Positions 58,423 to 60,045 of a DNA stretch of 64,000 bases are shown piece after piece (positions within the stretch are counted from its first letter, which is position 1; each line of letters opens with the position of its first letter). This DNA is from an uncultured Psychroserpens sp. (GTDB lineage: Bacteria > Bacteroidota > Bacteroidia > Flavobacteriales > Flavobacteriaceae), in contig CANKZZ010000005.1 of the NCBI GenBank assembly GCA_947488655.1, forward strand, positions 186,001 to 250,000, given 5' to 3'. The notes beneath the pieces were generated by a model. That model saw only the letters and a list, made by a program, of their open reading frames with translations. It was not told the DNA's origin and ran no database searches. The position numbers were made by a program, and so were the translations under genes.

Positions 58423-58439
58423 TTGGCACGCAAATTGGT
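58423..58439 (+). promoter_or_regulatory. sigma-54 (RpoN) -24/-12 type promoter
   Basis: TTGGCACG-caaa-TTGGT, matches TGGCACG-N4-TTGC[AT] with one deviation; intergenic, about 80 bp upstream of the 58517 gene. Confidence 0.7.
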
Positions 58440-58516
58440 TTACACCTTGCAAATAGCGTAAGTCTAAAAATTTCTAAACGAGTTAGAAATAAAGACAAAT
58501 CTAAAAACCTATAATT

Positions 58517-59209
58517 ATGAAAAAGCAAGTACTTTTTATTGCAGCCTTGTTAATAGGATTAACATCTGCACAAGCAACTACAACAGGAAATGTTGTTAGT
58601 AATGGGGAAGATTTAAATAATGCACGCTACCGTTTTGCTGAGCCAATAATGTTCTTAGAACGTGGTGTAGAATTTTTAATTTTTCCTGATGGAAGTTTTG
58701 ATTTTAATACAGAAATTCAAAACAATGTTGGTGAGACATATTATCGTACAACTAGAACTCGAAGAGCCTCTGTTAATACAACTTATGGAGCACCAGGAAC
58801 TGTAAATAGAGTACAATATTCTACACCTAGACCAAGAGGTGTTATTATAACACACGATAGTAATGGTAAAGTTAGAAGAATTGGTAATGTTTATATTAAT
58901 TACGATAGAGAAGGTAGAATTAAACGTGCTGGATCTGTATATATGAGTTACCAACGCGGTAACGGATTACTGAGACAGGTTGGCGGTTTACGAGTAAACT
59001 ATAATCGTTGGGGAGAAATTGTAAATATTAATGGTTTTGTAAACCAACATAATGCAAGTCTAAACTATAGTGTTGGATCTGGTTATGATGGCGGTCACCA
59101 AAATGATGTTTATAATTATGAAGACGATTTTGATGATGATTATTACTACTACCGTAAAGACGGAAAAGTAAAGAAACAGAAAAAGAGTAAAACAAATAAA
59201 AGAAAATAA
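58517..59209 (+). CDS. secreted protein, paralog A (FLERGVEFLIFPDGSFDF family)
   Basis: Signal peptide MKKQVLFIAALLIGLTSAQA; repeated Y-x-GR/GN-type segments. Confidence 0.8.
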   Translation: MKKQVLFIAALLIGLTSAQATTTGNVVSNGEDLNNARYRFAEPIMFLERGVEFLIFPDGSFDFNTEIQNNVGETYYRTTRTRRASVNTTYGAPGTVNRVQYSTPRPRGVIITHDSNGKVRRIGNVYINYDREGRIKRAGSVYMSYQRGNGLLRQVGGLRVNYNRWGEIVNINGFVNQHNASLNYSVGSGYDGGHQNDVYNYEDDFDDDYYYYRKDGKVKKQKKSKTNKRK

Positions 59210-59256
59210 AATATAGATTTTTTTGGTTGGTTATTCACGATTGAGTGAATATATAA

Positions 59257-59294
59257 ATTCCCGAGTTGGTTCCCCCAAACCCTCGGGATTTTTA
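59257..59294 (+). terminator. intrinsic terminator
   Basis: TCCCGAG...CTCGGGATTTTT. Confidence 0.75.
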
Positions 59295-59906
59295 ATTTAT
59301 AAGTATAGATTCTAAGAAGCTATCTTCTATAAGTGTTTTGATATTATCATTAGGAATTAGATCAATTGTCATATTTAAATGCTCTGTATCTCCAGCATTA
59401 ACCACATGATGCGCATCTGTTAATTTTAAATACCAACATTCTCCTGGTTTCATATCTACAATATTATTATTTAAATAAAAATATGATTCATTATTATTAA
59501 TAATTGGTATAGTTAATCGTATGACAGATTTCTCTACTACTAATCCAAGTGTTGGGTCATTATGCTCCTTAACTTTAGAGTTAGGAGCTAAACGAAGTAA
59601 TCTTACCAATTTTACTGCTGTAATCTCTTTGAATGAGTCTATAATGCTTTTTAAATATGGTGATTTATTTAAATCGTTTGTGTCTAACCATTCTGTCCAT
59701 GACCCATCTGCATAATCACTAACAGGAGCTGGCATAGGTAATGAGGTATCAACTAAATGTGCTGGAGCTCTTAACTGTATAACGTTATAATATTCAAAGG
59801 CATTAAGTTGTAATTTTAAATATTCATCTTGCATAAGACTTGCATCAAAACTTATAGGCAACTTCATACGATCTTTATTTAACATAGTATCTCTTAGTGA
59901 CTTCAT
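59292..59906 (-). CDS. aspartyl/asparaginyl beta-hydroxylase family protein
   Basis: APNSKVKEHNDPTLGLVVEKSVIRLTIPI (HxD), PGECWYLKLTDAHHVVNAG (distal His). Confidence 0.85.
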   Translation of the reverse strand: MKSLRDTMLNKDRMKLPISFDASLMQDEYLKLQLNAFEYYNVIQLRAPAHLVDTSLPMPAPVSDYADGSWTEWLDTNDLNKSPYLKSIIDSFKEITAVKLVRLLRLAPNSKVKEHNDPTLGLVVEKSVIRLTIPIINNNESYFYLNNNIVDMKPGECWYLKLTDAHHVVNAGDTEHLNMTIDLIPNDNIKTLIEDSFLESILIN

Positions 59907-60028
59907 ATATATAACTACTCTATAATTAGAGTGTACAATTTAAAAATCTCTTGTTTCTTATTTATAGGTACATTTACCTGTTTACATATATCGCTTTAAG
60001 TCAGTGTGTTAGGGTGGTTTTTTAATTT

Positions 60029-60045
60029 TTGGCACGTTAATTGTT
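60029..60045 (+). promoter_or_regulatory. sigma-54 (RpoN) -24/-12 type promoter
   Basis: TTGGCACG-ttaa-TTGTT, same TGGCACG-N4-TTG spacing as at 58423. Confidence 0.7.

Follow-up and report, generated by a model that had tools for sequence, protein, structure and literature searches.

Sigma-54 promoters before two paralogous exported-protein genes and a possible sigma-54-controlled RNA regulon in Flavobacteriaceae

What drives the two paralogous genes for exported proteins that lie near one end of a 64,000-nucleotide (nt) stretch of an uncultured Psychroserpens sp. genome (contig CANKZZ010000005.1, positions 186,001 to 250,000; the window, hereafter), and what do their transcripts carry besides a coding sequence? 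A preliminary description of this DNA proposed a promoter of the -24/-12 type, read by the alternative sigma factor sigma-54 (RpoN), in front of each gene. In Bacteroidota, little has been mapped of either sigma-54 control or small RNAs. We find that both sites are, almost certainly, genuine sigma-54 promoters and, judging from sequence comparison, that they very probably serve a small regulon, directed at the cell envelope and conserved throughout Flavobacteriaceae. A 3' element that appears to be new and previously undescribed is common to the transcripts of such promoters; among the papers listed by an open-access literature search, none was relevant to it.

Both sites, TTGGCACGCAAATTGGT before the short gene and TTGGCACGTTAATTGTT before the long one, were found at the places previously given (Table 1). 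They end 77 and 34 bases from the respective ATG codons, in keeping with the proposed upstream location, and they are indeed the only exact matches to TGGCACGN4TTG in the window. Allowing one mismatch adds a third match at 27010, and the resulting count of three against 1.4 expected is not significant for the window. The agreement with the promoter consensus is partial: TGGCACG-N4-TTG is present at both sites, whereas the C of the TTGC -12 box is not, the sites reading TTGG and TTGT. The paralogy of the two genes was also borne out (37% identity across about 146 residues, E 1.8e-15), and they are the only genes of the FPDGxFDF type in the host genome.

Genome-wide, the motif behaves as a promoter should. 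There are seven exact matches to TTGGCACG-N4-TTG in the 3.6 Mb genome and six of them are intergenic, against an intergenic share of 9.8% (binomial P about 6e-6 by our own calculation). When the spacer was made one base shorter or longer (N3 or N5), none of the nine matches in the whole genome was intergenic. This dependence of the intergenic bias on exact spacing is as predicted for a two-part promoter. With the correct spacing and one mismatch the intergenic excess is gone (4 of 49 in the genome), suggesting that the usable motif is strict in this host. These intergenic statistics, as well as the start-codon statistics given below, rest on simple open reading frame calls. Ranked by position weight matrix (PWM) score among all intergenic sites of the genome, the long-gene promoter is first and the short-gene promoter third.

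Conservation points the same way. Relatives of the long gene are present in 51 of 61 Flavobacteriaceae genomes, and all 50 full orthologues have TGGCA[CT][GA]N4TTG near the start codon; on both strands of the 340 kb that make up these 50 loci, the pattern occurs 60 times in total. No base of the -24 TGGCA or of the -12 TTG varies across 48 aligned long-gene promoters, and positions slightly further upstream are close to random, the conserved site lying inside otherwise diverged upstream DNA. The short-gene site is likewise retained in nine orthologous upstream regions. The rpoN gene, whose absence the preliminary description had named as evidence against its proposal, is present in the host and in all 61 Flavobacteriaceae genomes examined. 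Three host proteins contain the sigma-54 interaction domain PF00158. The one on C3 is a response regulator with a Fis-type helix-turn-helix (HTH), and its gene adjoins a histidine kinase gene; the one on C2 has an HTH and no receiver domain and is encoded near groES/groEL and secG; the one on C4 (C4:433125-434288) consists of receiver and ATPase domains, with no Fis-type HTH detected. Intergenic bias, orthologue conservation and the presence of rpoN with three activators together support the proposed promoters.

The same type of promoter has been described in Flavobacterium psychrophilum, a member of the same family. There, mapped transcription starts with a -24/-12 motif (SM4) were reported for genes of chaperones, gliding, lipoproteins and unknown exported proteins, as well as for the small RNA Rfp36. 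Mutagenesis verified one SM4 site, and the authors noted three proteins with PF00158 (PMC9723704). The two systems thus share the motif, the number of activators and the kinds of targets: exported proteins of unknown function, lipoproteins, chaperones and, for SM4, one small RNA. They differ in that the part of that article available to us describes neither a 3' element nor a family-wide conservation of a paralogue pair. In light of the published regulon, the window promoters represent a new, well-conserved case of a known promoter type. A 2011 comparison tied sigma-54 to the bacterial exterior in general, and a keyword search of its text gave no mention of Bacteroidetes or Flavobacteria (PMC3162934).

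Two observations weigh against sigma-54 at these sites. The canonical C after the -12 TTG, absent from both window sites, is found in one of the 48 orthologous promoters, where the base is mostly T, G or A; and the upstream regions yielded no conserved or convincing activator-binding site. The base following the -12 TTG tolerates variation, and the missing C weakens the match without excluding it. The TTGG and TTGT boxes would also suit a different explanation, in which the TTGGCACG sites are chance matches or belong to another regulator and the genes use an ordinary Bacteroidota -7/-33 promoter. We regard this as very improbable indeed: the intergenic enrichment is specific to the correct spacing, the site accompanies 50 of 50 long-gene orthologues, and the same motif type stands at mapped starts in the related F. 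psychrophilum (PMC9723704). As for activator binding, the lack of a detected Fis-type DNA-binding domain in the C4 activator means that an upstream activator site may be dispensable. That activator would fit promoters that have no conserved activator site. The inverted repeat AGGTA-CATT-TACCT, previously put forward as an activator site at 59967-59979, starts one base earlier than that and was rejected, as it is not conserved: of 57 related upstream regions, it is in the window's own alone.

At a sigma-54 promoter of this kind, RNA polymerase with sigma-54 would remain waiting for one of the three activator ATPases to open the promoter, and by analogy with known sigma-54 promoters transcription would start about 12 bases after the TTG. 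The products of the regulon would comprise exported proteins and at least one small RNA. Describing it as a regulon of the two paralogues was correct as to their membership and incomplete as to its extent, for it also takes in lipoproteins, a LysM protein and small RNAs. A putative lipoprotein gene (C1:512025) is a second target, with the sigma-54 site kept in 18 of 19 orthologues; further high-scoring targets are a putative lipoprotein (C5:394706) and the LysM protein (C3:460476). Another putative lipoprotein gene, at C3:2055-3086, follows a sigma-54 site, and its product has an Arg/Ser/Thr-rich tail that resembles that of the long paralogue, with a different N-terminal part. Upstream of groES (C2:560974-561249), at a distance of 165 nt, lies TTGGCATTTTTTTTTGC. 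In F. psychrophilum, groES has a mapped sigma-54 promoter (PMC9723704).

What do the transcripts share at their other end? Several sigma-54 transcripts carry a common 3' element, UUUUGGUUGGUUAGUU, followed by a terminator. In both window genes TTGGTTGGTTA stands 13-14 nt past the stop codon and precedes a terminator-like hairpin. This 11-mer has six intergenic copies in the genome, of which four belong to sigma-54 units: one after each paralogue, one after the C1:512025 lipoprotein gene and one in a short unit without a gene (C6:11366). The form [TA]GGTTGGTT follows the stop codon in 36 of the 49 long orthologues whose locus includes the 3' end, and the element follows it in 14 of 19 orthologues of the C1:512025 lipoprotein gene. 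A search of 27 genomes for TTTTGGTTGGTTAGTT, made blind to promoters, gave 36 matches compared with one for the reversed pattern. By our own count, with the site at locus L235 taken from a separate search, 30 of the 36 lie in sigma-54 units, 11 of them stand-alone and 19 after genes. In the terminator stem of the long gene, paired positions vary on both sides across orthologues. Within the terminator stem of many long orthologues lies a further, conserved hairpin, UAUGCCUCAAAGCAC or UUUGCCUCAAAGCAA (e.g. 61264-61300 in the window).

Unannotated small RNAs driven by sigma-54, present in about 70 of 201 Flavobacteriaceae genomes, likewise have the element as their core. A sigma-54 site followed by the element after 35-64 nt gave 23 matches in 21 of these genomes, and a version with a spacer of 65-94 nt gave 60 matches in 53 others; since at least four matches resemble coding sequence (G059, G074, G079, G091), about 70 is the fair count. 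Neither reversed-pattern controls for both spacer classes nor a pattern with the promoter spacing one base wrong gave any match in the 201 genomes. Across all GTDB species the short-spacer pattern was found in 95 stretches; among the 80 listed, four are clearly outside Bacteroidota and most carry Flavobacteriaceae names.

These RNAs would be about 70-120 nt long. Compared with shuffled sequence, their 5' part folds more stably (mean z -2.45 in the short class and -1.62 in the long class); their terminator is strong (z -5.85), and an ATG reading frame is missing from 58 of 84. In having their own promoter and terminator and little coding potential, they resemble trans-acting antisense small RNAs. 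In 59 of the 84 predicted folds the element is unpaired, between the structured 5' part and the terminator. No Rfam family scored above its gathering score in eight loci, and a plain alignment of the longer class gave no consensus fold. That one sequence is both a shared tail of mRNAs and the core of small RNAs suggests that the stress response has an RNA arm. Several genomes have these RNAs in tandem or in multiple copies, e.g. Nonlabens ulvanivorans and Flavobacteria bacterium BBFL7 (loci L089, L110, L169, L172, L174 and L183; genomes G183, G198, G069, G092 and G175). The region C2:389055-389130 may specify a second kind of sigma-54 RNA, a very short one: there, a sigma-54 site is followed by a terminator-like hairpin within about 45 nt and no gene is present.

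Could the element act on other mRNAs? If it were an antisense seed, its complement would be expected at translation starts. In the host genome (G000), 49 starts have predicted pairing of -14 kcal/mol or lower. Seeds shuffled by dinucleotide give 23.7 +/- 5.1, with 49 reached by none of 25, and the region 80-130 nt upstream of starts shows no excess. Among C/G-containing 7-mers before the host's start codons, AACCAAU has the strongest enrichment (52 vs 4). Another element-bearing genome, G024, has 20 start-codon pairings vs 6.7, a number reached by none of 60 shuffles, and G025, which lacks the element, shows no enrichment. Within the window, the candidate target is a DUF3667 gene divergent from the short paralogue. 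Its pairing falls on average among the best 20% relative to shuffled seeds (mean rank 0.20) across 20 orthologues, which are not independent, and the pairing position shifts among them. A simple 8-mer permutation test for targets gave only a modest signal.

An antisense role of the element is therefore plausible on this sequence evidence, and several results count against it. A third element-bearing genome, G021, has no start-codon enrichment in 301 genes, so that support for start-codon targeting is mixed, coming from two of three element-bearing genomes. Something else could also account for AACCAA at start codons. Outer-membrane TonB receptor mRNAs were considered as preferred targets and rejected, because one of 29 at -12 kcal/mol or lower equals background. 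Tentatively, we see as possible, though short of probable, a sigma-54-controlled RNA regulon in Flavobacteriaceae in which mRNA ends and small RNAs carry the seed UUUUGGUUGGUUAGUU, which would pair in trans with AACCAA-type sites at the start codons of other mRNAs. Under the same reservation, activation of exported proteins would be coupled to translational repression in trans, so that the response would both make exported proteins and tune down others. The 3' ends of mRNAs made under an alternative envelope sigma factor can carry RNA regulators, as in small RNAs derived from the 3' untranslated region (UTR).

The main rival to the antisense reading is protein binding. An RNA-binding protein or a nuclease might bind or process RNA at the GGUUGGUUAG element and in this way determine how stable sigma-54 transcripts are or how their 3' ends are processed, and the stand-alone RNAs would be its decoys. 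The element's usually unpaired state in the predicted folds and its constant place just past stop codons would suit such a site; taken alone, this explanation predicts neither the complement enrichment at G000 and G024 start codons nor retention of the complement in DUF3667 orthologues, and we consider it rather unlikely. A still simpler proposal makes the element a mere part of the termination signal at these genes, with no role in trans. The regular terminator hairpin behind it agrees with this, but exact copies of TTTTGGTTGGTTAGTT are few (0-4 per genome in the 27 genomes) and an identity of 14-16 nt goes far beyond what a terminator needs, which makes the proposal improbable.

The antisense reading has a parallel in the sigmaE-dependent small RNAs of enterobacteria, for example MicA and RybB (PMC1804206), where an alternative envelope sigma factor also drives small RNAs together with mRNAs. 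The sigma factor, phylum and sequence are different, however, and the targets of the window's element are not enriched for outer-membrane receptor mRNAs. If the antisense reading is true, an envelope response has gained a small-RNA arm outside the setting of sigmaE and Hfq. The conserved promoter and RNA module supplies exact sequences for mutation and a first means of approaching a widespread family of proteins with unknown function.

Table 1. Features of the locus, in coordinates of the window
Feature	Position	Strand	Remark
Predicted antisense target AACCAACCAA, codons 3-6 of the DUF3667 gene (57148-58245)	58230..58239	-	duplex -16.3 kcal/mol
Sigma-54 -24/-12 promoter, 230-aa gene	58423..58439	+	exact match; PWM 24.4; 9 orthologous upstream regions
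Conserved short-gene leader AATAGCGTAAGTC...GAC, possible structured 5' UTR	58452..58497	+	one stem is GTC/GAC; relatives have GCC/GGC
Short paralogue, 230-aa exported protein	58517..59209	+	no Pfam family over cut-off
3' element TTGGTTGGTTA	59223..59233	+	13 nt after short-gene stop
Terminator-like hairpin CCCGAG...CTCGGG and T-run after short gene	59257..59293	+	read from the sequence
AGGTA-CATT-TACCT inverted repeat, proposed activator site, unsupported	59966..59979	none	missing from the other 56 related upstream regions
Sigma-54 -24/-12 promoter, 383-aa gene	60029..60045	+	exact match; best intergenic PWM; 50/50 orthologues
Long paralogue, 383-aa exported protein	60080..61231	+	N-terminal beta-hairpin repeats; basic Ser/Thr/Arg-rich tail (predicted disordered)
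3' element TTGGTTGGTTAG	61246..61257	+	14 nt after long-gene stop; [TA]GGTTGGTT in orthologues
Terminator-like hairpin GTCCCAT...ATGGGAC after long gene	61264..61308	+	conserved inner TATGCCTCAAAGCAC

The AlphaFold model of the long protein has low confidence overall (mean predicted local distance difference test score, pLDDT, of 50); the short beta-hairpin repeats of its N-terminal part are better predicted, and the tail has no predicted structure. A fold search of the PDB gave no significant match, the best being the shells of RhsA and teneurin. The predicted repeats and these non-significant matches recall YD-repeat (teneurin-Rhs) shell proteins, from which the long protein differs in its much smaller size, low-confidence model and basic disordered tail, with no toxin domain seen. 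We do not claim membership of that family.

Both genes also have conserved pieces in their leaders. In the short paralogue, the conserved AATAGCGTAAGCCGAAAAGCTA...AGTAGGC could form a small pseudoknot, in the window as well as in L017, L062, L063, L067, L071 and L072. The 5' UTR of the long gene has a CGAATGtAAATAGTTGCATTCG hairpin in one clade, and others carry GCGTAC...GTACAACC (e.g. L033, L034, L041, L049 and L052). Such clade-specific pieces suggest that the long gene may be regulated through its leader.
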